Program-made: the position numbers and the translations under genes
Shown here: one piece after another, positions 22,792 through 63,409 of the stretch
Position numbering within the stretch: position 1 is the stretch's first letter
Layout of the letters: every line of letters starts with the position of its first letter
Source of the DNA: Acrocarpospora phusangensis
Lineage (GTDB): Bacteria; Actinomycetota; Actinomycetes; Streptosporangiales; Streptosporangiaceae
Reading direction: 5' to 3'
DNA length: 64,000 bases
NCBI RefSeq assembly: GCF_016862995.1
Contig: NZ_BOOA01000008.1
Location: 1-64,000, forward strand
Notes under the pieces: generated by a model
What the model was told of the DNA's origin: nothing
Seen by the model: only the letters and a program-made list of their open reading frames with translations
Database searches by the model: none

Positions 22792-25482
22792 CTATGTGCG
22801 CTTCCAGAACGGGCGGCGGGTGCGGCCGGTTTCCGGCTCGGCGGGAGTGTCGGGAGCGCCCGCCGTGAGCCGGGCCAGCAGGTCGGTGGCCCGCTGCCAG
22901 AGCCCGGCCAGGTCCGCGTCCGGGCGCTCGGCCCTCTCCAGATCGGCCGCCAGCGCCGCCAGTTCGGCGTGTCCGCCGGCCATCTGGTCGATCACGCGCA
23001 GCCGGCTGGCCAGGTCGGCCAGGTAGCGGCGGCGTTCCTGGTCGGGACGTCCGGCCGCGGCGCGCAGCCGTACCAGCTCCTCGGTGAGGAGAGCGCGCAC
23101 GCCGTCCAGGTTGGTCTGCGGGGGCCGCTGGTCCTTGCCGGGGTGCGGCCGCATCATGTCGGGGATGTACCCCTCCGGTGTGCGGCGACGGCTCGGCGGG
23201 ACCGGCGCCGCGCTGGGCGGCAGGTTGAAGGGCGCGGCGGGCCGGGGCGCGACCGGCATGCGCGGCCCGGCGGCGGGCGGCGGCGGGGGAGGGGGCGAGC
23301 CGGGCGCACGGCCGGAGGCCTCGTCCGTCGCGAAGGAGGCCAGGGAGGCCATCCGCATCTTCGGGGCGGCCGCGACGGGCATGCCCGCCGGCATCTCCCA
23401 GCCGCTGGGCTGCTCGACCGGCTGGATCACGTGGTGCTCCGGCTCGCCGTCGGCGACCACCCGCGTGTCCACGGCGACGAACGCGGTGAACCGGCAGAGC
23501 ACGCCGAACCTGAGCGACGTCGCCACGATCCGCGGCTCCAGCTGCCGTTCGCCGATCGTGTACCGGTCCTCCAGGCGGCGCACCTCGGCCCTGGCCCAGA
23601 CCGCCCGAGCCGCGGGCGCGTCCGTCTCGCGTCCGTCGATCCTGCTCTCCCACGGCTTGCCGTCCGCGGTTCCCCGTACGGTGATCGCCGGGCGCTCGCC
23701 ACGACACCGGTACCGGCCCGACACCACCAGCGGGACGCCGCTGAAGAGCGAGCCCACGTGGGTGAGCGTGTCCTCGACCAGGTCGAGGCCGGCGGCGTCC
23801 AGGGTGAGGTCGGTGACCAGCGGGGAGCCGATGCGGCGGTGGATGTGCTCCATCGCCTCGTCCAGCCGGTCCTCCGACTCGACCAGCTCGCACCGGCCGG
23901 AGCCGAGCAGCGCCAGCCGCCCGAGGAACCCGGCGTTCACGGCCCGGTCGATGCCGACCGCGTGGATGCGGATGCCGGAGGCGGCGTCGATCCGCGCCCC
24001 GACGCGCTCGACGATCTGGTCCTCGTTGCCGACCTGCCCGTCGGTCACCAGCACCATGACACGGTCCCGGGAGGTGTCTCCGAGCAGTCCCAGCGCCTCC
24101 TCCATGGGCGCGAGAATCTCGGTGCCACCGCGGGCGTCCAGCCGGGACAGGTGCTCGACCGCCCGGTACCTGTTCCGGTCACTCGCCTCGACCAGGCCGG
24201 ACGGGAAGGCCCGCATGACGTCGTGGTCGAAGCAGAGCACGGCCAGCCGGTCGTGCGCGGTCAGCGTGTCCACGATCCGGGCGGCGGCGCGCCGGGCGGC
24301 GACCATCTTCCAGCCGCCCATGCTGCCGGAACGGTCGAGCAGCAGCACCACGTCCCGGGGGACCGGCACGGCGGCGACGTCGGCCGGAGGCGTCATGGTC
24401 AGCGTGAACGTGCCTTCCTCTCCCTCGTCGTCGGGCGTCAGCGTCAGCGACGTGGACGCGTCGAAGGCCAGGCGCAGAAGGAAGTCCCGGTCCAGCCGCT
24501 CGCCCGGCCGCAGCTCCACGATGACCGTCTCGCCGCCGCCGCCATCCGCAGCGATGCCCCCGCTGGTGTCCCCGCTGGTGTCCGCAGTGGCGTCCGCATT
24601 GGTGTCTGCGGCGGTGTCCGCGGCGGTGTCCCCGCTGGCGTCCGCAGTGGCGTCCGCATTGGCGTCCGCATTGGTGTTCACGGTGATGTCCGCGCTGGTG
24701 TCCGCGCTGGTGTCCGCGCTGGTGTCCGCGCTGGTGTCCGTGCTGGTGTCCGTGCTGGTGTCCGCGCTGGTGTCCGTGGTGGTGTTCACGGTGTGCAGGC
24801 TGGAGCGGATCTCGCGCAGGTCCAGGCCGGCGGGGTCGATGGTGGCGGACAGGGAGAGCCGTACCGGATTGGGGAAGCCGGGGAGCAGGACGGGCGGGGT
24901 GATGCGGGAGGCGTCGGGCACGGCGTCGGTGTCCTCGGCCACGCCCCCGCCCGCCGAGGCGCCTTGGAGGGGTACGCCGGGGATGTAGCGCGGGGCCACG
25001 ACCAGCGGGAACCGGAACTCGGCCGCGCCGTCCCCGTACGGCAACGGCTGGCTGAGCGTCAGCCGGACGGTGACCCGCTCGCCGGGCAGGATGTTGCCGA
25101 CCCGGATGGTGAACACGTCCGGCCGGTCCTCCTCGGCGATCGCGGCCCGGCGGCCCTGGGCCAGCGCCAGGTCGTAGTCCGCTCTGGCCTGGCCGCGCTC
25201 CTTGAGCACGCCCTCCACGACGCGGTCGTCGGCCTCCATGGTGAACGCGGTGACCGCGGCCCTGGGCGGCAGCGGGAAGACGTAGGTGGCCTCCAGGGAC
25301 ACCTCGTGCGGGTTGCGGAAGCCCTGGGCCATGCGCACACCCGCGGTCAGACCGCTGATCCGCGCGGTCACGTCCACGCTCTCCAGCGGGAGGTTGCCCT
25401 TCTCGGTCTCCAGGGCGCCGAATCCGGATTCGGGCACCGGCGCGTACTCCTCCGGGCGAAGCGGAGTGATGGGAACGGTCAT
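22792..25482 (-). CDS. VIT domain and von Willebrand factor A domain protein
   Basis: An 896-residue protein. Residues about 1-130 form a VIT domain (DVTARISGLTAGVRMAQGF ... ATYVFPLPPRAAVTAF). Residues about 190-260 are a low-complexity Thr/Ser-Ala-Asp tetrapeptide array. A vWA domain follows (about 370-540) with an intact MIDAS motif, VVLLLDRSGSMGGWK, and the downstream Thr and Asp of RGGTEI and VTDGQVGN. The C-terminal third has proline-rich runs. No signal peptide is present, so it is probably cytoplasmic. VIT-vWA proteins (inter-alpha-trypsin-inhibitor heavy chain-like) usually assemble protein complexes through Mg-dependent contacts. Its start overlaps the stop of the MerR gene (ATGA), so the two form one operon. 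Confidence 0.88.
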   Translation of the reverse strand: MTVPITPLRPEEYAPVPESGFGALETEKGNLPLESVDVTARISGLTAGVRMAQGFRNPHEVSLEATYVFPLPPRAAVTAFTMEADDRVVEGVLKERGQARADYDLALAQGRRAAIAEEDRPDVFTIRVGNILPGERVTVRLTLSQPLPYGDGAAEFRFPLVVAPRYIPGVPLQGASAGGGVAEDTDAVPDASRITPPVLLPGFPNPVRLSLSATIDPAGLDLREIRSSLHTVNTTTDTSADTSTDTSTDTSADTSADTSADTSADITVNTNADANADATADASGDTAADTAADTNADATADTSGDTSGGIAADGGGGETVIVELRPGERLDRDFLLRLAFDASTSLTLTPDDEGEEGTFTLTMTPPADVAAVPVPRDVVLLLDRSGSMGGWKMVAARRAAARIVDTLTAHDRLAVLCFDHDVMRAFPSGLVEASDRNRYRAVEHLSRLDARGGTEILAPMEEALGLLGDTSRDRVMVLVTDGQVGNEDQIVERVGARIDAASGIRIHAVGIDRAVNAGFLGRLALLGSGRCELVESEDRLDEAMEHIHRRIGSPLVTDLTLDAAGLDLVEDTLTHVGSLFSGVPLVVSGRYRCRGERPAITVRGTADGKPWESRIDGRETDAPAARAVWARAEVRRLEDRYTIGERQLEPRIVATSLRFGVLCRFTAFVAVDTRVVADGEPEHHVIQPVEQPSGWEMPAGMPVAAAPKMRMASLASFATDEASGRAPGSPPPPPPPAAGPRMPVAPRPAAPFNLPPSAAPVPPSRRRTPEGYIPDMMRPHPGKDQRPPQTNLDGVRALLTEELVRLRAAAGRPDQERRRYLADLASRLRVIDQMAGGHAELAALAADLERAERPDADLAGLWQRATDLLARLTAGAPDTPAEPETGRTRRPFWKRT
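24560..24795 (-). repeat. In-frame 12-bp tandem repeat (GTGTCCGCGCTG-like)
   Basis: About nineteen 12-bp units of the type GTGTCCGCGCTG, several diverged, encode a Ser-Ala-Asp-Thr-like tetrapeptide array between the VIT and vWA domains. Unit length keeps the frame, so copy number can change without breaking the gene. Confidence 0.85.
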
Positions 25483-26636
25483 AGCGGTGTCCCTTCGGAA
25501 TTCGTGTCAGGGCGGCCCGGGTCGGTGAGGCCAGGATCGATGTGGCTCGGATCCAAAGGGCTCGGATCCTTGTGGCTCGGGTCGATGTGACTCGGGTCGT
25601 TGTGGCTCGGATCCAAAGGGTTCGGATCCTTGTGGCTCGGGTCGTTGTGGCTCGGGTCGTTGCGGCTCGGATGGCTGGGGCTCGGAGCGATGTAGCTCGG
25701 GCCGATCAGGCCGAGGTCGGTCAGTGCGGTCAGGAGCGGGCGGGCCGCAGCCGCGAGGGCGGTCAGGTCATCGTCCGACGGTGTCCGGCTCACGCCGTCC
25801 AGCACCAGGGCCACTCCGGGAGCGATCTTCACGCCGTGCACCCGCGCGGCCGGAAGCACTGGAGCCGTTGGGGCCACTGGTGCCGCCGCGGTTATGGGGG
25901 CTGCCGGAGCTGCCGGAGTTGCAGGGATTGCGGGAGCCGTGGGGGTTGCTGGAGGCGCGGGGGTTACGGAAGGTGCCGGAACTGGCGCGGTTGTCGGAGA
26001 GGTCGGGGTTTCGGGAGCTGCCGGGGTTGCCGGGGCTGCGGGAGCTGCCGGGGTTGCCGGGGCTGCGGGAGACGACGGGGTCACGGCCTGGGCGGCCCAG
26101 AAGCGGGGGCGTGCGGGTTCAGAGGCCGGTTGCTCGAAAACCGGTGGTTCGGGGACCGGTTCGGAAGCCGGTGGCTTGGGGGCGGGTGGTGCGGGGGTCG
26201 GTGGTGTGGAGGCTGGTGGCGTGGGGACTGGTGGCGTGGGGACTGGTGGCTTGGCGACCGGTGGCTTGGGGACCGGTGGCTTGGGAGTCGGTGATGCGGG
26301 GGGCCGTGGGTCGGGGTGGGTCGGGTAGGGGGAGGTGCGGGCGATGGTCTGGAGGGCCGAGTCGGGGGCTCCGGCCAGCCGGACCTGGATCTCCGCGATC
26401 GAGTGGCCGGCCGCTTGAAGGCGTTTGACGGAGATGAGTTGCAGCAGGTGGCGTGGGCCGTACACGGCGACCCGGCCGCGCCGGGCGAGGGGCGGGTCGA
26501 GCAGCCCGATCGTCACGTACCACCGGATGAGCCGCTCGTTGGGGACCTCTCTGACCCGCCCGTTGAGGCGTCCGTCGGAGCCCAGCGCCTCCGCCGCGTG
26601 CTCGGCCAGTTCGCCGATGGTCCAGGTCTCGCTCAT
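25479..26636 (-). CDS. MerR family regulator with long repetitive C-terminal tail
   Basis: A 385-residue protein. Residues 1-90 form a MerR winged helix (TWTIGELAEHAAEAL, LIRWYVTIGLLDPP, YGPRHLLQLISVKRLQAAG, HSIAEIQVRLAG). Then come about 100 residues of Pro/Lys/Thr repeats and about 80 of Pro/Ala repeats, a conserved short segment (VHGVKIAPGVALVLDGVSRT) and a tail of about eleven DPSHxDP-type pentapeptides. The usual MerR antiparallel coiled coil is not obvious, so dimerisation may be unusual. A perfect inverted repeat lies 11 bp before the start. It is translationally coupled to the VIT/vWA gene, which is probably its target; the divergent dps gene may be another. Confidence 0.83.
   Translation of the reverse strand: MSETWTIGELAEHAAEALGSDGRLNGRVREVPNERLIRWYVTIGLLDPPLARRGRVAVYGPRHLLQLISVKRLQAAGHSIAEIQVRLAGAPDSALQTIARTSPYPTHPDPRPPASPTPKPPVPKPPVAKPPVPTPPVPTPPASTPPTPAPPAPKPPASEPVPEPPVFEQPASEPARPRFWAAQAVTPSSPAAPATPAAPAAPATPAAPETPTSPTTAPVPAPSVTPAPPATPTAPAIPATPAAPAAPITAAAPVAPTAPVLPAARVHGVKIAPGVALVLDGVSRTPSDDDLTALAAAARPLLTALTDLGLIGPSYIAPSPSHPSRNDPSHNDPSHKDPNPLDPSHNDPSHIDPSHKDPSPLDPSHIDPGLTDPGRPDTNSEGTPL
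25535..25690 (-). repeat. In-frame 15-bp tandem repeat at 3' end of merR gene
   Basis: About ten 15-bp units of the type TGTGGCTCGGGTCGT encode the DPSHK/DPSHN/DPSHI pentapeptides; two longer copies contain GGATCC. The array ends just before the stop codon. Confidence 0.85.
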
Positions 26637-26671: not shown

Positions 26672-26738
26672 ACTTCGGAACAGGGTCCGTCTGTTTCGGG
26701 TTGTCCGTATTAGGTCCATCTCGATGGAAGGAACAAGC

Positions 26739-27206
26739 ATGGCTCCGATTACCAGCCTTCTGACCGCCGAGAACAAGAAGATCACCGGAAATGCGCTGCA
26801 GGGCGCCCTGGTCGACCTGATCGATCTGGCGCTGATCGGCAAGCAGGCGCACTGGAACCTCACGGGGCGGTTCTTCCGCCCGATCCACCTCCAGCTCGAC
26901 GACATCGTCAAGCTGGCCAGGAAGAAGGCCGACTCCGTGGCCGAGCGCGCCGTCGCCATCGGCGTCAACCCGGACGGCCGCGCGAGCACGATCGTCCACG
27001 ACAGCCAGCTGTCCCACATGGACGCGGGGCCGATCGAGGACGGCAAGGTCATCGCCGTGATGACCGACATCCTGGAGTCGATCATCCGCAGGATGCGGGA
27101 ACGCATCGACGCGACCGAGCGTGCCGACCCGGTCAGCCAGGATCTGCTCATCGGTCTCACCAGAGACCTGGAGATGCACCACTGGATGATCCAGGCCCAG
27201 CGTTAG
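26739..27206 (+). CDS. dps: Dps family DNA-binding ferritin-like protein
   Basis: A 155-residue Dps/miniferritin. The inter-subunit ferroxidase ligands are all present with exact Dps spacing: His38, His50, Asp54, Asp65 and Glu69 (numbered from ATG 26739) within AHWNLTG, IHLQLDD and ADSVAERA. It oxidises ferrous iron with peroxide, stores iron and may coat DNA in stationary phase or oxidative stress. ATG 26739 is preferred over 26724 because GAAGGA lies between them at the correct spacing. It diverges from merR and shares the intergenic operator region. Its stop overlaps the KAP gene stop by four bases. Confidence 0.93.
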   Translation: MAPITSLLTAENKKITGNALQGALVDLIDLALIGKQAHWNLTGRFFRPIHLQLDDIVKLARKKADSVAERAVAIGVNPDGRASTIVHDSQLSHMDAGPIEDGKVIAVMTDILESIIRRMRERIDATERADPVSQDLLIGLTRDLEMHHWMIQAQR

Positions 27207-30200
27207 AGCAGGCGCCGGGCCAGCCCCGCGACCGGGGGGCCGGAGGCGAGCAGCGCCCGCAGCGGGCCGCTCGCCTCCGCCGGCACCCCGGCCATCCGCG
27301 CCGCCTCCACCCACCCTTCCGCGCGTGCCACGTCCAGCCGCCCCTTGGCCGCAGCCATGTCCGGGCAGCCATTAATCACCGTCGTGCCCCCATGGCCGTG
27401 GGCCGCTGCCGTGTCCGGGCGGCCATTGGTCACTGTCGTGTCCGCGCGGTCGTCGGCCGCTGCCTTATCCCAGTGCCCATTGGGCAACGTCGTGTCCGCG
27501 CGGCCGTCGGCCGCTGCCGTATCCCGGTGACCATTGGGCGACGTCGTGTACGTGTGATCATTGGGCAACCTCGTGCCCTCATGGCCGTCGGCCGTTGCCG
27601 AATCCACCCCGCCGACCGACCGTGCCGCGCGTTCCAGCAACTCCAGGGCCGTCTCCCCCCGCTCCGGGCAGTCCCGCGTGAGCGTCGACAGCAGTTGCGG
27701 CCAGCGCACGGTGAGCGCGGCCAGCTTGGCCACCTCGGCGTCCCCGGCCGGCGGTTCCCCGGCCAGACGCCGCCGATACGTGACGAAGGAGTAGAAGCGG
27801 AACACGTTGACGTACCGCTTCAGTTCGCGTGGATTGGTGGCCGACAGAGCGGGGAGCGCGACCTCGATGGCCCGGCAGGCGTTCTCGTCGCTGTACAGGT
27901 CGTCGAAGACCCGGTCGGCCGCGGCGCGGGTCTCCAGCCAGAGGCCGCCCAGCATGCCCGCCTCCCCGGCAGGCGCGTCGACCACACGCTGGGTGGCGCG
28001 CGCGATCGAGTCGAGCGTGTCCGCCCGCGGCCGCCGCGCGCGGATGGCCTGCTCGATCCGGGCGACGAGCTCCTGATCGAGCGGCCGGTCCGGGGGACGA
28101 TGCGCCGGAGCCTGGGTTTCGGTCATGCCTGGACTGTCCGGAAATCCCATCAGCGTACGGACGTAGCCGGGCAGGCGGGCGCCGTCGTCCAGGAGCGGCA
28201 CCGACAGCGGCAGCTGCACGATCTTCTCCAGGAACCGCCAGCCGATGCCGTGCCGGAGGCTCTCCGGCATCGAGTCGGCAAGCTCGCGGTAGGCCAGCTC
28301 CACGTGCGCGGCCACCACGTCCGGCTCCATCGCCAGCACGAAGACGCAGTTCGGGAACTCCCCGGCCAGGAACAGGTTGATCGCCTCGATCACCTGGGCC
28401 ACCGTGCCGGAGGAGCAGCGGTCCAGGTCGTCCACGAACACCAGCAGCGGGCGCTCCTCCGTCGCCACCAGGCCGAGCACGTGCCGCATGTCGGTCTGCA
28501 CCAGGTGCAGGAAGCCGGTCCGCGCGCCGTACCCGGGTTCGGCGACGAGGTCGCCCGGGTCGGGGGCGGGGGCGAACATGTCCGGAGGGCGGACCAGGCC
28601 GGCGAAGGCGGTGTCGGCGGATTCGGTGAGAAAACGCGCGAGCCGTACCCAGCCGGCGGCGACGGCGGCCAGCGCGCCCGCCGAGGAGATCGCGGCCGCG
28701 GTGCCCTCCAGGGCCGGCAGCAGCGGCGTCGCCAGCTGCGACGCGCCCGCCACCACCAGCGCCATGACCAGGCCGAGCGCAGCCGGCGCCAGCCGCAGCG
28801 CCGCCAGCCGGTACGCCCTGCGCCGCACCGCCTCCCGGTCGATCCTGGCCAGGTTGAGCCGCAGCCAGAAACGTTCCCGCTCCGCCCGGGGCAGCCGGCC
28901 GGTCACCTGCGTGATGATCTCGTGCGCGAGTCCGGCCCAGACCTGCTCGCCGTTCTGGTACATCCACGGGTTGAACCACACCGTCGGCCGCCACCCGCTC
29001 AGCCCGGCCGCCGCCTCGGGCAGCGGCTCCGGCGGCCGTTTCGCCCAGGTACGGACCTCCGCGATGGTCACCCGATCGGACCCGCCCAGCACGCCCGGCC
29101 ACATCCGCCCCGCGATCCCGAGCAGCCGGGACGGCGGCCGGGCCGGCAGCGGCCGGGGCAGCGTGATCGGCCCCGGCTCCCCGGTCGCCGCCCCCGGATC
29201 CAGCTCGTTCTGGATCATCCGCATCAGCGAGGTCTTGCCGGCGCCCCACGGGCCTTTGATCCCGATCGTCAGCGGCGGCCTGGTCTCCGGATGGCGGACG
29301 AACGCGGCGATGGCCTCCGCGTACACCCGGTGCCCCAGGTCGTCGTCGATGGTCCAGCGGTCGGGGGTGAGCCTGGCCCGCGGCGGCACGGTCCTGCGGC
29401 CGGCCCGCCAGCGGCGCAACACCCCGGGCACCTCGTCCAGTTCCGTCGCCGTGAGCCGGGCCCGGCCGGTCTCGGCCACGCTCGGATGGGCGAAGGGCGT
29501 GCCGCGACCAAGGAGGCCCCACTCCGCCAGCTCCGCGCGCCCGTCGGTCCGCCCGGCCAGCAGCTGGGCCACCTCCGGCGTCAGCTCCTCGTCGTCGGCC
29601 AGAAGCGAGGCCCGCCGCAGCAGCGTCTGCGCCTCCGCGCCGAGGTACTCGTCGTAGACCGTGCCGGCCAGCCGCTCCGCCGACGGCGCCCGGCCGCCCA
29701 GCCGCTCGTGCGCGTACGCGAGTTCGGCCGGGACGCCGGGCTCCGCGGCCGGGGCGGTGACCGCGACCGCGATGTCCAGGCCCTCGGCCGAGGTGAGCAG
29801 GTGCGGCTGGAACTCGGCGTCCGCGCCGAACACGGCCAGCGCGTGGCCGAGCAGGTCGGCGGCGGTGATCACGCCGTCCCCGTCCAGGTCGGCCGCGCCG
29901 TCGAGCAGGCCGCCGGCCACCACCTCGGTCAGCGAGAGGCTGCCGGGCCGTACCTCCTCGCCGATGGTGAGGCCGGTGGTGAGGGCGGCGGCGGCCACGC
30001 CCGGCGGGGTGAGCAGGGCGCTGACCGTGGGCTCGTCCACGGTCGCGCTGCCGATCCACCCGAAGTCGACCACCATCAGCAGCGCCGCCGCGGCGGAGTC
30101 CCCGGCCCCCGCCCCGAAGCGGCGGATCAGCGCGGTGAACTCGCCGCCGCTCCACCGGGCCGTGCGCGGCCAGCGCACCAGCAGCAGGTCGCCGGGCCGC

Positions 30201-30412
30201 CCGGAGTCCAGGAACGCGGTCAGCCGTTCGTGGTCCCGGCTGTCCAGGCTCTGCTGCGCGTCCACCTCGAAGCCGCGGGCGCGCAGCGCGCCGACCAGCC
30301 GCCGTGCCGGTTCCGGGGCACGCCGTCCGGGTTCGTCCGGATCGAGGAAGATCAGCGCCCGGCGTCGCGTGATCGTGGGCGAGCTGATCTTTTCGGAAAC
30401 TGCGCTGGTCAT
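27203..30412 (-). CDS. KAP family P-loop NTPase with N-terminal degenerate caspase-like domain
   Basis: About 1069 residues. Residues 15-220 resemble an actinobacterial caspase (C14) domain: RRALIFLDP, LTAFLDSGRPGDLLLVRW, ALLMVVDFGW and the calcium-loop-like DLDGDGVITAAD (175-186) that often ends such domains. The His-Gly and Asp-Cys catalytic motifs are not present, so it is probably inactive. The KAP NTPase follows: Walker A GPWGAGKTS (387-395), WFNPW (479-483), two TM helices at about 541-560 and 571-592 inserted in the domain as in other KAP proteins, and Walker B LLVFVDDLDRC (656-666). A repeat array occupies the C-terminal part. The start is ATG 30412 after CGGAGCACTTCG. Likely membrane-bound; the signalling or defence role is inferred. 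Confidence 0.82.
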   Translation of the reverse strand: MTSAVSEKISSPTITRRRALIFLDPDEPGRRAPEPARRLVGALRARGFEVDAQQSLDSRDHERLTAFLDSGRPGDLLLVRWPRTARWSGGEFTALIRRFGAGAGDSAAAALLMVVDFGWIGSATVDEPTVSALLTPPGVAAAALTTGLTIGEEVRPGSLSLTEVVAGGLLDGAADLDGDGVITAADLLGHALAVFGADAEFQPHLLTSAEGLDIAVAVTAPAAEPGVPAELAYAHERLGGRAPSAERLAGTVYDEYLGAEAQTLLRRASLLADDEELTPEVAQLLAGRTDGRAELAEWGLLGRGTPFAHPSVAETGRARLTATELDEVPGVLRRWRAGRRTVPPRARLTPDRWTIDDDLGHRVYAEAIAAFVRHPETRPPLTIGIKGPWGAGKTSLMRMIQNELDPGAATGEPGPITLPRPLPARPPSRLLGIAGRMWPGVLGGSDRVTIAEVRTWAKRPPEPLPEAAAGLSGWRPTVWFNPWMYQNGEQVWAGLAHEIITQVTGRLPRAERERFWLRLNLARIDREAVRRRAYRLAALRLAPAALGLVMALVVAGASQLATPLLPALEGTAAAISSAGALAAVAAGWVRLARFLTESADTAFAGLVRPPDMFAPAPDPGDLVAEPGYGARTGFLHLVQTDMRHVLGLVATEERPLLVFVDDLDRCSSGTVAQVIEAINLFLAGEFPNCVFVLAMEPDVVAAHVELAYRELADSMPESLRHGIGWRFLEKIVQLPLSVPLLDDGARLPGYVRTLMGFPDSPGMTETQAPAHRPPDRPLDQELVARIEQAIRARRPRADTLDSIARATQRVVDAPAGEAGMLGGLWLETRAAADRVFDDLYSDENACRAIEVALPALSATNPRELKRYVNVFRFYSFVTYRRRLAGEPPAGDAEVAKLAALTVRWPQLLSTLTRDCPERGETALELLERAARSVGGVDSATADGHEGTRLPNDHTYTTSPNGHRDTAAADGRADTTLPNGHWDKAAADDRADTTVTNGRPDTAAAHGHGGTTVINGCPDMAAAKGRLDVARAEGWVEAARMAGVPAEASGPLRALLASGPPVAGLARRLL
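27345..27580 (-). repeat. In-frame ~54-bp tandem repeat in KAP NTPase gene
   Basis: About four and a half diverged copies of an 18-codon unit (peptide pattern NGHxDTAAADxRADTTLP) lie near the 3' end of the KAP gene. Shared words include GGCCATTGG/GTCACTGTCGTGTCCG and CGGCCGCTGCC. The frame is preserved in all copies. Confidence 0.8.
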
Positions 30413-30588
30413 CGAAGTGCTCCGCGGGAAGGCCTGGAGTCGATCACGATAAACGGCGTTCACCTGGGAGGAGACCATGGTTTGCGCAAAGTTTGAGCGC
30501 AAGAACCGTGCGGATTCCCCGGGCGTTCACGCGGATTCGATCGACTGGCGGGACCCGCCGCGCGTAGCGTGCCCAGTGGGAGGAGAAT

Positions 30589-31773
30589 ATGTTGCGCCGC
30601 ACGTTCGTCCGTTCCGGGGCCCTGGCCGCGCTCACCGGGTCGCTCTGGCGCTCGGCCTGCGCCGCGCCCGCCGCCCCCGGTGCCTCCGGCGCCCCCAGCG
30701 TCCCGGCCTCGCCGATGCCGGCCGGCGACGCCGTCCGCGGCAAGGGGCCGTACGGCGCGCTGGGCAAACCGGACCGAAACTCGATCGCCCTGGCCGAGGG
30801 TTTCACCAGCCGGGTGGTCGGCCGCTCCGGGCAGCGGGTCGGCGGCCTGACCTGGCATCCCGCCCCCGACGGCGGCGCCTGCTTCGCCGACGGCGACGGC
30901 TGGATCTACGTCTCCAACTCCGAGGTGCCCGTGGTCGGCGGCGTCTCCGCGCTCCGCTTCGGCCCGGACGGCTCGATCAAGACGGGCTACCGCATCCTGT
31001 CCGGCACCGACCGCAACTGCGCCGGCGGCGCGACCCCCTGGAACACCTGGCTGTCCTGCGAGGAGACGGTCCGCGGCCGCGTCTTCGAATGCGACCCGTA
31101 CGGCTACCGCGCCGCGGCCCCCCGCCTCGCCATGGGCCGCTTCAAGCACGAGGCCGCCGCCTGCGACCCCGACCGCGAGGTCGTCTACCTGACCGAGGAC
31201 GAGCCGGACGGCTGCTTCTACCGGTTCCGCCCGCAGGACTGGGGCGACCTCACCACGGGCGTCCTGGAGGTCATGGTCGGCGACGGCGACGACCCTACCG
31301 GCCAAGTGCGCTGGCGGCGTATCCCGAACCCCTCCGCCACGTACGAGCCGACCCGCGACCAGGTCGAGGGCGCGATCCGCTTCAACGGCGGCGAAGGCTG
31401 CTACTACTCGGGCGGCTTCTGCTACTTCACCACCAAGGGCGACAACCGCGTCTGGGCCTACGACGCCGCCAACCGCGAACTCTCCGTCCTGTACGACGCC
31501 AACGCCCCGCTCAAGGGCGTGGACAACGTCTTCGTCTCCCGTTCCGGCGACCTGTTCGTGGCCGAGGACGGCGGCAACATGGAGATCAACATCATCACCG
31601 CCGACGGCGAGGTGGCGCCCTTCCTCCGCCTGGTCGGCCACCAGAAGTCCGAGATCACGGGCCTGGCCTTCGCCCCCGACGGGGACCGCCTCTACTTCTC
31701 CTCCCAGCGCGGCACCACCGGCTCCAACCGCTCCGGCGTCACCTACGAGGTGATGGGGCCGTTCCGCAGCTGA
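30589..31773 (+). CDS. DUF839/PhoX-family secreted phosphatase-like protein
   Basis: A 394-residue protein with a twin-arginine-type signal (RRTFVRSGALAALTG) and an Ala-x-Ala cleavage region near CAAPAAPG. The mature part matches PhoX-like DUF839 beta-propeller proteins: LTWHPAPDGGACF, CAGGATPWNTWLSCEETVRG, GRFKHEAAACDP and GLAFAPDGDRLYFSSQRG. PhoX enzymes are calcium/iron phosphatases exported folded through Tat. RBS GGGAGGAG. It is divergent from the KAP gene with a 176-bp gap. Activity on phosphate esters is inferred from the family. Confidence 0.85.
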   Translation: MLRRTFVRSGALAALTGSLWRSACAAPAAPGASGAPSVPASPMPAGDAVRGKGPYGALGKPDRNSIALAEGFTSRVVGRSGQRVGGLTWHPAPDGGACFADGDGWIYVSNSEVPVVGGVSALRFGPDGSIKTGYRILSGTDRNCAGGATPWNTWLSCEETVRGRVFECDPYGYRAAAPRLAMGRFKHEAAACDPDREVVYLTEDEPDGCFYRFRPQDWGDLTTGVLEVMVGDGDDPTGQVRWRRIPNPSATYEPTRDQVEGAIRFNGGEGCYYSGGFCYFTTKGDNRVWAYDAANRELSVLYDANAPLKGVDNVFVSRSGDLFVAEDGGNMEINIITADGEVAPFLRLVGHQKSEITGLAFAPDGDRLYFSSQRGTTGSNRSGVTYEVMGPFRS

Positions 31774-31821: not shown

Positions 31822-32721
31822 TCAGAGGGGGCGTTCCCAGAACTGTTCGTTGAAGGCGGCGGCGGGTTCCTCGGCCACGAGCTTGAAGCCGGCGGCCTCG
31901 TAGATCTTGCGGGCCGACACGAGGACGTCGCGGGTCCACAGCATGATCGTCTGGTAGCCGGAGTCCCGGGCGAAGCGCAGGCACTCCTCGACCAGCCGGG
32001 CGCCGATGCCGAGCCCGCGGGCGGACGGATCCACCAGGAGCAGGCGAAGCTGGGCGGTGGTGGCGTCCTTGCGCACGCAGAACACGCAGCCCACCCGGCG
32101 GCCGTCCACCTCGGCGATCCACCCCGCCTGCCCGGGGCTGCCCTGCGCGTCCAGGAAGTCGGCGCAGATGCGGGCCACCAGGGCCTCGAAGTCGGGTCCC
32201 CAGCCGTACTCGCGGGAGTACAGGGCGCCGTGGCGGCCGATCGCCCACCCCAGGTCCCCGGGGCGCGGCGGCCGGATCACGAAAGGCACCCGGTCGCGCT
32301 TCTCGCCCAGGACGTCCCGGATGACGCCCATGCTCGCGACCAGCCGGGACCGCTCCTCCTCCGGCAGCGCGTCCAGCAGGCCCCTGACCTCGGCGTCCGA
32401 CTGTTCGTCCAGCTTCGCGAAGGTGGCCCGGCCGTCGTCGGTGAGCCCCACCACCTGCCGCCGGCCGTCGACGGCCGACCGCTCCCGCCGGACCAGACCA
32501 TCCCCTTCGAGCCTGGCCAGAACCCGGCTGAGATAACCCGCGTCCAGCCCGAGCAGCCGCTTGACCTCCCCGACCTCCACGTCCCCCGCCGTTCGGTCGA
32601 GTTCGAACAGCACCCGCGCCTCGGTCAGCGAGTAGGGCGAGTCATGCATCCCGGCCCGGAGCATCCCGATCACCGCCGTGTAGAAGCGGTTGAAGGCCCG
32701 GACCTCTGCCACCATATCCAT
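31822..32721 (-). CDS. MarR-GNAT fusion (bifunctional regulator/acetyltransferase)
   Basis: A 299-residue fusion. The N-terminal half (about 1-145) is MarR-type: SLTEARVLFELDR, VKRLLGLDAGYLSRVLARLEGDGLV, RRERSAVDGRRQVVGLTDDG. The C-terminal half (about 150-299) is GNAT: WIAEVDGRRVGCVFCVR, LLLVDPSARGLGIGARLVEECLRFA, GYQTIMLWTRDVLVSARKIYEAAGF. Such fusions are common in actinomycetes and act as sensors, with acetyl-CoA or a small substrate as the signal. ATG 32721 lies behind GAGGAG. A near-perfect palindrome upstream is the predicted autoregulatory site. Confidence 0.9.
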   Translation of the reverse strand: MDMVAEVRAFNRFYTAVIGMLRAGMHDSPYSLTEARVLFELDRTAGDVEVGEVKRLLGLDAGYLSRVLARLEGDGLVRRERSAVDGRRQVVGLTDDGRATFAKLDEQSDAEVRGLLDALPEEERSRLVASMGVIRDVLGEKRDRVPFVIRPPRPGDLGWAIGRHGALYSREYGWGPDFEALVARICADFLDAQGSPGQAGWIAEVDGRRVGCVFCVRKDATTAQLRLLLVDPSARGLGIGARLVEECLRFARDSGYQTIMLWTRDVLVSARKIYEAAGFKLVAEEPAAAFNEQFWERPL

Positions 32722-32729
32722 TGCTCTCC

Positions 32730-32745
32730 TCAACGAATCCGTTGA
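32730..32745. promoter_or_regulatory. Predicted MarR operator upstream of MarR-GNAT gene
   Basis: TCAACGAATCCGTTGA is a 16-bp palindrome with one mismatched pair, nine bases upstream of the MarR-GNAT start and overlapping its ribosome-binding region. MarR sites with GTTGA/TCAAC half sites are common. It also lies 83 bp before the divergent lactonase gene. Confidence 0.6.
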
Positions 32746-32827
32746 CTGAGGCAACAATACTCCGCGCTGGCTTCCGGGGTGATCGAACCGTAGAGTCTGC
32801 TATCGGCCAACGGCAGGGGAGCTAAGC

Positions 32828-58089: not shown

Positions 58090-59307
58090 GTGCGGCAGGC
58101 GCGGGAAGCGGCGGGCTTGAATCAGCGCGAGCTCGCTCGGGCGGCAGGGTTGTCCCAGCCGACCCTGGCTCGTATCGAACTCGGCACCCGGCCCCGCCTG
58201 GCCGTCGCCGAACTCGACCGCATCGCCGCCGTCCTGCAGATTCAGCTCAGCGATCTGACCACCGGCAGCCGCGTGCGCGACCGTGTCCGCGTCGCGGCCC
58301 GAATGGCCGCCCGAATGGCCGCCCGAATGGCCGCCCGAATGGCCGCCCGAATGGCCGCCCGAATGGCCGAGGGCACGGCGGACCTGTGGGAAGCCGCCCT
58401 GCAACAAGCCATCGGCATTCTGATACTCGACGACCGGCTCGACCGCCTGGTGGGAAAGCGGCTCAGCAGGACGGTCCGGCTCGTCGCGAACCCGGCATCG
58501 GACGACCCGGGAATGCCCGCCGAGGAACAGGGCCGCGCGATGGCGAACGTCGCGCGGCGAACGCTGGACCTGGGCGGCGCCCCCCTGGCGGATCCGGCCG
58601 AGGCCGCCGAGTGGCTGACCGGCGCCGACACCGCCGCTCTGGACTTTCCCAGCGGAATCGACGGCCTCACCCTGACTGATCCCGCCCGCGACGTCACCCT
58701 GATCGCGGTCGGCTCGGGCAGCGTCAGCGAACGGCAGCGCTTCACCCTCGCCCACGAACTGGGCCACCTGCTGTCCGGCGACGGCGGGCACTGCGACACC
58801 GTCGACGGCAAGCGAACCGCCGCGGAGAAGCGTTGCGATTCCTTCGCCCGCCACCTGCTCGCTCCCCAGCGCGGGATCCGGGCCTGGCTCGGCGCCGACA
58901 CCCGTCCGGACGAGCGTTCCACCGCCCTGCTCGCCCACCATTTCGGCGTCAGCCTCATGGTCATCCTCATCCAACTGGAACGCATGGGTCTCCTCACCCG
59001 AGACGAGAGCGAATCCATGCGCGGCTTGACCGGCGCCCAACTCGCGCGCCGCTACGGCTGGGGCCGCTCGTACGAACGTGAACAGGAGATCAGCCGAACC
59101 CGGCGGCCTCCCCGCTGCATTGTGGAACGGGCGACGACCGCCTATCGCGACGGCCGGCTCGGCATCGGCGTCCTGGCCGGCCTCGAAGGCCGCGACCCAG
59201 GCGAAACCGAAGCCGCCCTCGCCGACGCTGGCATCACCCCCACTCCCGTACGGCACGCCGACCTGAACCGGCTCCTCCAGCGCGCTCGGGGGGACAACCA
59301 GACGTGA
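58090..59307 (+). CDS. XRE helix-turn-helix / ImmA-IrrE metallopeptidase fusion
   Basis: A 405-residue protein. Residues 1-60: XRE HTH (RQAREAAGLNQRELARAAG, LSQPTLARIELGTRPRL). Residues about 70-95: Met-Ala-Ala-Arg repeats, likely one long helix. Residues about 190-290: COG2856/ImmA-IrrE domain with the zinc motif FTLAHELGHLLSGDGG and the later Glu in CDSFARHLLAP. The family includes ImmA, which cleaves the ICE/phage repressor ImmR, and IrrE. The GTG start cuts close to the HTH; an ATG at 58047 in another frame reads MFLAQSEGVEARR, which looks like a missing N-terminus, so a frameshift near 58085 is possible. Confidence 0.82.
   Translation: MRQAREAAGLNQRELARAAGLSQPTLARIELGTRPRLAVAELDRIAAVLQIQLSDLTTGSRVRDRVRVAARMAARMAARMAARMAARMAARMAEGTADLWEAALQQAIGILILDDRLDRLVGKRLSRTVRLVANPASDDPGMPAEEQGRAMANVARRTLDLGGAPLADPAEAAEWLTGADTAALDFPSGIDGLTLTDPARDVTLIAVGSGSVSERQRFTLAHELGHLLSGDGGHCDTVDGKRTAAEKRCDSFARHLLAPQRGIRAWLGADTRPDERSTALLAHHFGVSLMVILIQLERMGLLTRDESESMRGLTGAQLARRYGWGRSYEREQEISRTRRPPRCIVERATTAYRDGRLGIGVLAGLEGRDPGETEAALADAGITPTPVRHADLNRLLQRARGDNQT
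58299..58370 (+). repeat. In-frame 12-bp tandem repeat (CGAATGGCCGCC)
   Basis: Six nearly identical copies of CGAATGGCCGCC encode (RMAA)n between the HTH and peptidase parts of the XRE/ImmA gene. The uniformity of the copies indicates recent expansion. Confidence 0.92.
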
Positions 59308-62820: not shown

Positions 62821-63409
62821 ATGCCCAATCCGCCGAAGGGCAGCCGGACCCGGCGGGACGCCCACTCCATCGCCGCCGCCATGGCGGCCATGAGCCGCAG
62901 CCCTGCTTCCATCTCCGCCGTCAGGGTCGCCGGGACCAGCAGCCCCCGCGTCAGCGCCGTGTGGCATCTTCAACGCCACACGGCCCGGGACCAGCGCCTT
63001 TCGCGTCAGCGCCATGCGGCATCGGCTGCATCGCCGTGCCTGGTCCACCAGTCCCGCTGGCACCGTGCAGCACTCGTGGCCCCGCCACGGCCTGCGACCA
63101 GCACCCCCCGTGTCAGCGCCATGCGGCACCCGCTGCATGGCCACGCCCAGGACCAGCAGTCCCGCTGGCACCGTGCAGCACTCGTGGCCCCGCCACGGCC
63201 CGGGACTAACAGCCCCGCCGGGCGCCATGCTGCACCCGCAGGACCCCAGCACGTACCGACGCGGGATGGGATTCCAGGAGGGTGGCGGCGATCCGGTCCT
63301 CGGCGGTCTGCCCCCGGACCGTTGTGACGGGACACGCGACGTCGTGGCGGGCCAGACCGTCCTGGGCTCCGGCAGCACTCCTTGACGAGTGGCAGGCGGT
63401 GGGACGTGG
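62821..63409. repeat. Repeat-filled gap downstream of rox (107-bp tandem repeat)
   Basis: Two nearly identical 107-bp units (63005-63111, 63112-63218) share GTCAGCGCCATGCGGC and a block ending CACTCGTGGCCCCGCCACGG; a partial upstream copy begins near 62950 and a fragment follows to about 63240. Each unit has internal inverted repeats such as GTGGC/GCCAC. The remaining sequence (62821-62949, 63241-63409) holds no gene I can support; open frames there are repeat translations. Confidence 0.82.

Follow-up and report, generated by a model that had tools for sequence, protein, structure and literature searches.

In animals, dead caspases act as regulators of cell death; published counts of bacterial pseudo-caspases come mainly from phototrophs, and in actinobacteria such forms were found to be nearly absent. 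Of the bacterial caspase homologues, 8.6% are pseudo-orthocaspases, which occur chiefly in alphaproteobacteria and cyanobacteria, whereas pseudo-forms account for 3 of 636 actinobacterial caspase homologues; the known pseudo-orthocaspases commonly carry His-to-Tyr and Cys-to-Ser swaps (Front Plant Sci 2019, PMC6426788). In the MoxR-vWA ternary systems, about 70% of the caspases that occupy the effector position lack activity, and the EACC1 system couples caspases to dozens of modules, as described in a paper on this and the VMAP ternary systems (eLife 2020, PMC7159879). KAP has been noted to substitute for STAND ATPases (PMC8195603). Within the window analyzed here, a stretch of 64,000 nucleotides of Acrocarpospora phusangensis DNA (contig NZ_BOOA01000008.1, positions 1 to 64,000), one gene encodes a protein in which a pseudo-caspase is followed by a winged-helix-like linker and then by an intact KAP ATPase that has a predicted transmembrane hairpin. 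Its start is the ATG at 30412, and the sister Acrocarpospora species align from the same MTSA- in the alignment of relatives. The gene is single copy in its own genome (100% self match) and is the only KAP gene found there by genome search, which returned the same KAP coordinates as Pfam. The gene and the features of its caspase-like part are as follows.

27203..30412, minus strand: whole gene, pseudo-caspase, winged-helix-like linker and KAP ATPase, 1069 amino acid residues (open reading frame and translation)
29759..30367, minus strand: pseudo-caspase domain, residues 16-218 (AlphaFold2 model, Foldseek, and hhalign against a shuffle null)
30167..30190, minus strand: residues 75-82, DLLLVRWP, site of the deleted caspase -FSGHG- His-Gly segment (profile alignment gap after P82)
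30056..30067, minus strand: DFGW motif, residues 116-119, replacing the caspase D-C-C-[FY] (hhalign register)
29873..29890, minus strand: EF-hand-like DxDxDG loop, residues 175-180, common to active actinobacterial caspases

In an original prediction, made from the letters alone, the N-terminal region had been read by eye as a caspase-like fold, and a structure prediction with a fold search had been asked for. In the Pfam scan, PF00656 did not match the gene even at E up to 1, and the gene was also outside the PF00656 matches of its own genome, so an independent test of the caspase fold was needed. An AlphaFold2 model of residues 1-345, built from an alignment of 30 family members, was obtained with a mean predicted local distance difference test (pLDDT) score of 86.4 and a predicted template modelling (pTM) score of 0.81. 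When this model was compared with the PDB by Foldseek, MALT1, metacaspases and caspases made up the first 40 matches, the best of them with E 4.4e-5 and probability 1.00. The TM-scores by target length, 0.27-0.50, are in the range to be expected when a distant relative is modelled together with an additional linker. By hhalign, the profile of the N-terminal domain was aligned with the profile of seven active caspases of the same genus over 203 columns (97.9% probability, E = 4.6e-13) and with a broader caspase set at E 1.3e-11. A rerun of the comparison in Python gave scores of 88 (genus caspases) and 78 (broader set), whereas column-reversed profiles scored 16 to 20 and 80 column shuffles reached at most 20. 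In the same register, residues 1-158 alone scored 35 and residues 159-224 alone scored 68; the two halves match separately, so the caspase match is not only that of the DLDGDG block, though residues 159-224 carry most of it. In the reverse search, in which whole genomes were scanned with the active-caspase profile, pseudo-caspase-KAP genes were recovered in four genomes (E 1.7e-7 to 5.4e-6). The alpha/beta caspase fold was thus recovered by both Foldseek and hhalign, the C14-type match in the PDB bears out the earlier reading by eye, and the N-terminal domain is almost certainly a pseudo-caspase.

The domain resembles the active C14 caspases (clan CD, PF00656), especially the actinobacterial orthocaspases with a DxDGDG loop, in its fold and in the order of strands and helices. 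It shares with the latter a C-terminal -FT..LV.GLR.G.AD.DGDG..SV.EL- block, in which the predicted DLDGDG loop was located at residues 175-180 and aligned with the active caspases. In contrast to the active enzymes, the His-Gly segment is deleted, the catalytic Cys is replaced by Gly, and the domain lies below Pfam detection. In the profile alignment, the caspase -FSGHG- segment and the residues after it fall into a gap of ~15 residues directly after DLLLVRWP, and the hhalign register places the caspase L-D-C-C-[FY]-S-G opposite V-D116-F117-G118-W119-I-G, with Gly118 at the position of the catalytic Cys. The proposal that both catalytic motifs had been lost, with DLLLVRW (residues 75-81) and DFGW in their places, was therefore upheld: the His-Cys dyad of an active C14 peptidase is gone, no intact dyad was found elsewhere in the domain, and the pseudo-caspase domain of the A. 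phusangensis gene contains zero cysteines.

Conservation was counted over the 40 alignment rows with a full-length pseudo-caspase domain. L77, R80, D116, F117, G118 and W119 were invariant in 40/40 members; there was no conserved Cys column and no invariant His, His61 being present in 22/40. The homologue search that had been asked for thus returned dyad loss in every member, and judged from these alignments inactivation is general and ancestral across the pseudo-caspase-KAP family. Among 50 caspase-bearing loci of the genus and family that were tested with the KAP region, 42 of which had both motifs in one frame, no intact caspase-KAP fusion was found. Since the dyad is gone while DFGW and R80 are fixed in all members, the pattern is not that of relaxed decay, which would not fix a new motif. 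This bears on whether the pseudo-caspase is a relic, that is, a dispensable spacer left by the fusion while the KAP part alone works. Such a relic could account for the faster evolution of the pseudo-caspase relative to KAP and for the DxDxDG loop, which was kept in 25/40 members and lost in 15/40. It is very unlikely, given that R80 and DFGW are invariant over at least seven genera, that every recovered clade member retains the domain, and that the within-genus ratio of nonsynonymous to synonymous substitution rates (dN/dS) is below 0.5 (0.29-0.49 for the pseudo-caspase, indicating purifying selection, and about 0.2 for KAP).

The domain may belong with the published pseudo-orthocaspases (PMC6426788), which it resembles in its p20-like fold, in the absence of the His-Cys dyad and in its conservation within lineages. 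It differs from them in the deletion, in the DFGW motif and in the fusion to KAP, which is absent from the text of that paper. The near-absence of pseudo-forms from actinobacteria may be due in part to profile searches that miss forms such as this one.

The remainder of the protein comprises the following features.

29393..29728, minus strand: all-helical winged-helix-like linker, residues 229-340 (AlphaFold2 pLDDT > 90 over most of it)
27794..29326, minus strand: KAP P-loop ATPase, residues 363-873 (Pfam PF07693, E = 8e-29)
29228..29254, minus strand: Walker A, GPWGAGKTS, residues 387-395 (K393 and T394 invariant)
28625..28837, minus strand: predicted transmembrane hairpin, residues 526-596 (hydropathy peak at 536-554 and two long model helices)
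28418..28435, minus strand: Walker B, VDDLDR, residues 660-665 (D661, D662, L663, D664 and R665 invariant)
27365..27607, minus strand: species-private insertion with 18-residue repeats, residues 936-1016 (Tandem Repeats Finder, TRF; absent from sister species)
27206..27364, minus strand: conserved C-terminal helices, residues 1017-1069 (C-terminus alignment; model helices 1017-1068)

The PF07693 match scored 101 bits against a cut-off of 20. Walker A and B were found where the original prediction had placed them, and their invariance was established over 30 aligned KAP proteins, six of them with other N-termini. The two transmembrane helices of that prediction correspond to model helices 526-560 and 568-596, inserted in the ATPase as is typical of KAP; the hairpin itself is predicted. 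It is as good as certain that this part of the protein is a KAP ATPase. It is like the KAP NTPases of PifA and QatA (PF07693) in the P-loop ATPase, the inserted transmembrane hairpin and the intact Walker motifs, but differs from them in its N-terminal pseudo-caspase and linker. Searched against the PDB by fold, the full-length model matched only through its caspase part, apart from some weak AAA+ matches, and the PDB sequence search (single protein and profile) gave generic P-loops and chance matches only, with no further relatives.

The fusion of pseudo-caspase and KAP in one chain was confirmed, and the proposed layout was refined by the linker between them. The linker profile scored 37.6 by hhalign against the linkers of a mostly NB-ARC-KAP set and 78 against the linker of STK-KAP (protein kinase), the shuffled maximum being 15. 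The winged-helix-like character of residues 229-340 is our inference, drawn not from a fold search but from where such linkers lie, behind NB-ARC domains. Two Nonomuraea members, L066 (Nonomuraea endophytica) and L068 (N. typhae), have lost most of the linker and kept DFGW. The 18-residue repeat that had been described as a tail is real: a tandem repeat with a 54-bp period, 3.8 copies and 82% match was detected at 27347-27549 by TRF. It is not a tail, however, since about 50 conserved residues follow it and the sister species lack it; it is a species-specific insertion within the C-terminal domain, predicted to be disordered (pLDDT about 30) and situated at a variable-length loop.

The pseudo-caspase-KAP gene was found in Acrocarpospora, Herbidospora, Streptosporangium, Sphaerisporangium, Microtetraspora, Nonomuraea, Rhizohabitans and one further relative. 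The N-terminal domain matched in 50/299 sampled Streptosporangiaceae genomes, three of them weakly; the weak matches in genomes G031 and G021 were chance matches to translations of wrong frames, and that in G098 did not recur on a tblastn recheck. In the KAP tree, the pseudo-caspase members form one clade (support 96/97). Other N-termini occur in the same KAP group: NB-ARC in L071 and L077, AAA_16 with a start that is TIR-like by eye in L073, a cold-shock (nucleic-acid-binding) domain on the same KAP type in L080 (Amycolatopsis xylanica), an unusual pairing, and Trypsin_2, an nSTAND5 P-loop and KAP in one chain in L142, which thus has two NTPase domains in tandem. Nonomuraea sediminis carries three KAP paralogues of the group, with the pseudo-caspase (L048), another N-terminal region (L072) and a protein kinase (L079). 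Three KAP genes with three different N-terminal regions in one genome are evidence that KAP serves as a module-swapping chassis, onto which caspase-like, kinase, NB-ARC, cold-shock and trypsin modules are exchanged for signalling.

Taken together, we tend to favor, at moderate strength, a membrane-anchored STAND-like ATP switch in which the dead caspase is a non-catalytic docking or sensing domain. The caspase fold is probably kept for binding or switching, not for cutting. ATP binding or hydrolysis by KAP, held by the predicted transmembrane hairpin, would alter the conformation or the oligomeric state, and the linker would relay this change to or from the pseudo-caspase, which may dock or sense a partner protein or peptide through a surface around the invariant R80 and DFGW, at the former active site. 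Within the same KAP group the N-terminal modules are exchangeable (NB-ARC, kinase, cold shock, and trypsin with nSTAND), as they are in STAND proteins, which supports a switch, and the invariant catalytic residues of KAP and the homology of the linker to other KAP fusions also count for it. With respect to NB-ARC or NACHT membership, only below-cut-off P-loop matches were found, inside KAP, and a winged-helix-like linker is present; the protein may work like a STAND switch without being one. Several points weigh against the switch: the pseudo-caspase changes more quickly than KAP (identity between most genera 34-46%, versus 75-87% around Walker B), it has no known partner or ligand, the full-length model has a pTM of 0.56, with low confidence in domain packing, and the loss of most of the linker from the two Nonomuraea members indicates that coupling through it is not indispensable.

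The likeness to c-FLIP_L and other animal pseudo-caspases, in which a dead caspase fold is also part of a signalling protein, suggests a regulator: the pseudo-caspase would pair with the cell's own active orthocaspases and activate or block them at the membrane, with KAP as an ATP-driven assembly platform. Its own genome has several genes for active caspases, including one of the closest type (L087), entry 3h11, which contains c-FLIP_L, was among the Foldseek matches at rank 49, and dead caspases have been proposed as regulators in bacterial conflict systems (PMC7159879). We nevertheless regard this pairing as unlikely. Three genomes (G008, G009 and G041) carry pseudo-caspase-KAP and, by the genus caspase profile with limited candidate scoring, no active caspase, so an active-caspase partner does not look obligatory; there is no adjacent caspase gene in the window, and there is no evidence for a common origin with c-FLIP_L or for caspase pairing.

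The neighborhood bears on whether the STAND-like switch would serve in defence.

30589..31773, plus strand: PhoX-like phosphatase, divergent neighbor (Pfam PF05787; synteny)
26724..27206, plus strand: ferritin/Dps, convergent neighbor, whose end overlaps the end of the gene by 4 bp (Pfam PF00210)
25479-26636, minus strand: MerR-like gene, downstream of the Dps gene
22792-25482, minus strand: VIT/VWA gene, downstream of Dps, with a TIGR03788 (sortase-target type) match below cut-off

The order PhoX-like, KAP, Dps, MerR-like, VIT/VWA is conserved across genera, which indicates vertical descent. The PhoX-like gene adjoins the KAP gene in most relatives with flanks and is missing in several, e.g., Sphaerisporangium. 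The original prediction had raised a role in defence as a possibility. As an anti-phage abortive-infection switch, the protein would sense infection, KAP would assemble, and the hairpin or a recruited partner would stop growth. KAP ATPases do occur in PifA and Qat (PADLOC matches to QatA at 1.6e-19 and PifA at 7.4e-18, in the KAP region only) and may take the place of STAND ATPases in predicted conflict systems (PMC8195603); the N-terminal modules are swapped, and in Nonomuraea the distribution is patchy, a KAP gene of the same group being kept in only 5/55 genomes. On the other hand, synteny is conserved, there is a single copy per genome within the genus Acrocarpospora, PADLOC recovered no defence genes among the neighbors scanned, and no relatives were found on the plasmids, phages and viral contigs searched, a set of traits that fits a resident gene. 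Nor does the gene qualify as Qat, the QatA equivalog scoring 89.4 bits against a cut-off of 600, with no qat matches among the scanned neighbors. An abortive-infection switch is accordingly judged improbable, and a mobile anti-phage system went unsupported by synteny, neighbors or the plasmid and phage searches. By its genomic behavior, this is a resident chromosomal gene of filamentous soil actinobacteria, for which a role in physiology or stress signalling is no less probable than one in defence.

The EACC1-caspase two-gene system of actinobacteria is similar in that an N-terminal caspase domain precedes swappable modules. Here, however, no co-directional partner gene lies directly upstream, the upstream neighbor being the divergent PhoX-like gene and the downstream one the convergent Dps gene (no EACC1 profile search was made), and KAP is not named among the modules in the text of PMC7159879.

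It is a doubtful but conceivable extension that the protein is the functional counterpart of c-FLIP or the apoptosome, a membrane ATPase that would gather and control partners via its dead caspase, through the DFGW/R80 interface, as the fixed physiology of one family and not as mobile defence. The parts are of known kinds; as far as the tools used here show, the combination, the mode of dyad loss and the fixation across the family are new. In keeping with the earlier statement that no described system of this layout was known, no published description of a pseudo-caspase-KAP protein was found in the searchable literature, subscription journals and supplements lying outside the search, so that a mention in a supplementary table is possible. 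A vertically inherited pseudo-caspase on an ATPase switch, with a sharply defined R80/DFGW motif, makes a non-cutting function of the caspase fold testable.

Some minor observations were made in the window. A promoter scan around the gene gave nothing above chance. The antisense plus-strand open reading frame at 27392-30496 (1034 amino acid residues) was rejected as an artefact of high GC, since both the conservation and every domain match lie on the minus strand. A MarR-type regulator fused to a GNAT acetyltransferase domain (31822-32757, minus strand) lies near the KAP gene in many relatives. The MerR-like and VIT/VWA genes also bear repeats (15/60-bp and 12-bp x 18.8), so that several genes of the block hold repeat arrays. 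A perfect 12-bp x 6 array at 58297-58369 and a 108-bp direct repeat of 2.4 copies at 62979-63239 are both unrelated to the pseudo-caspase-KAP gene.

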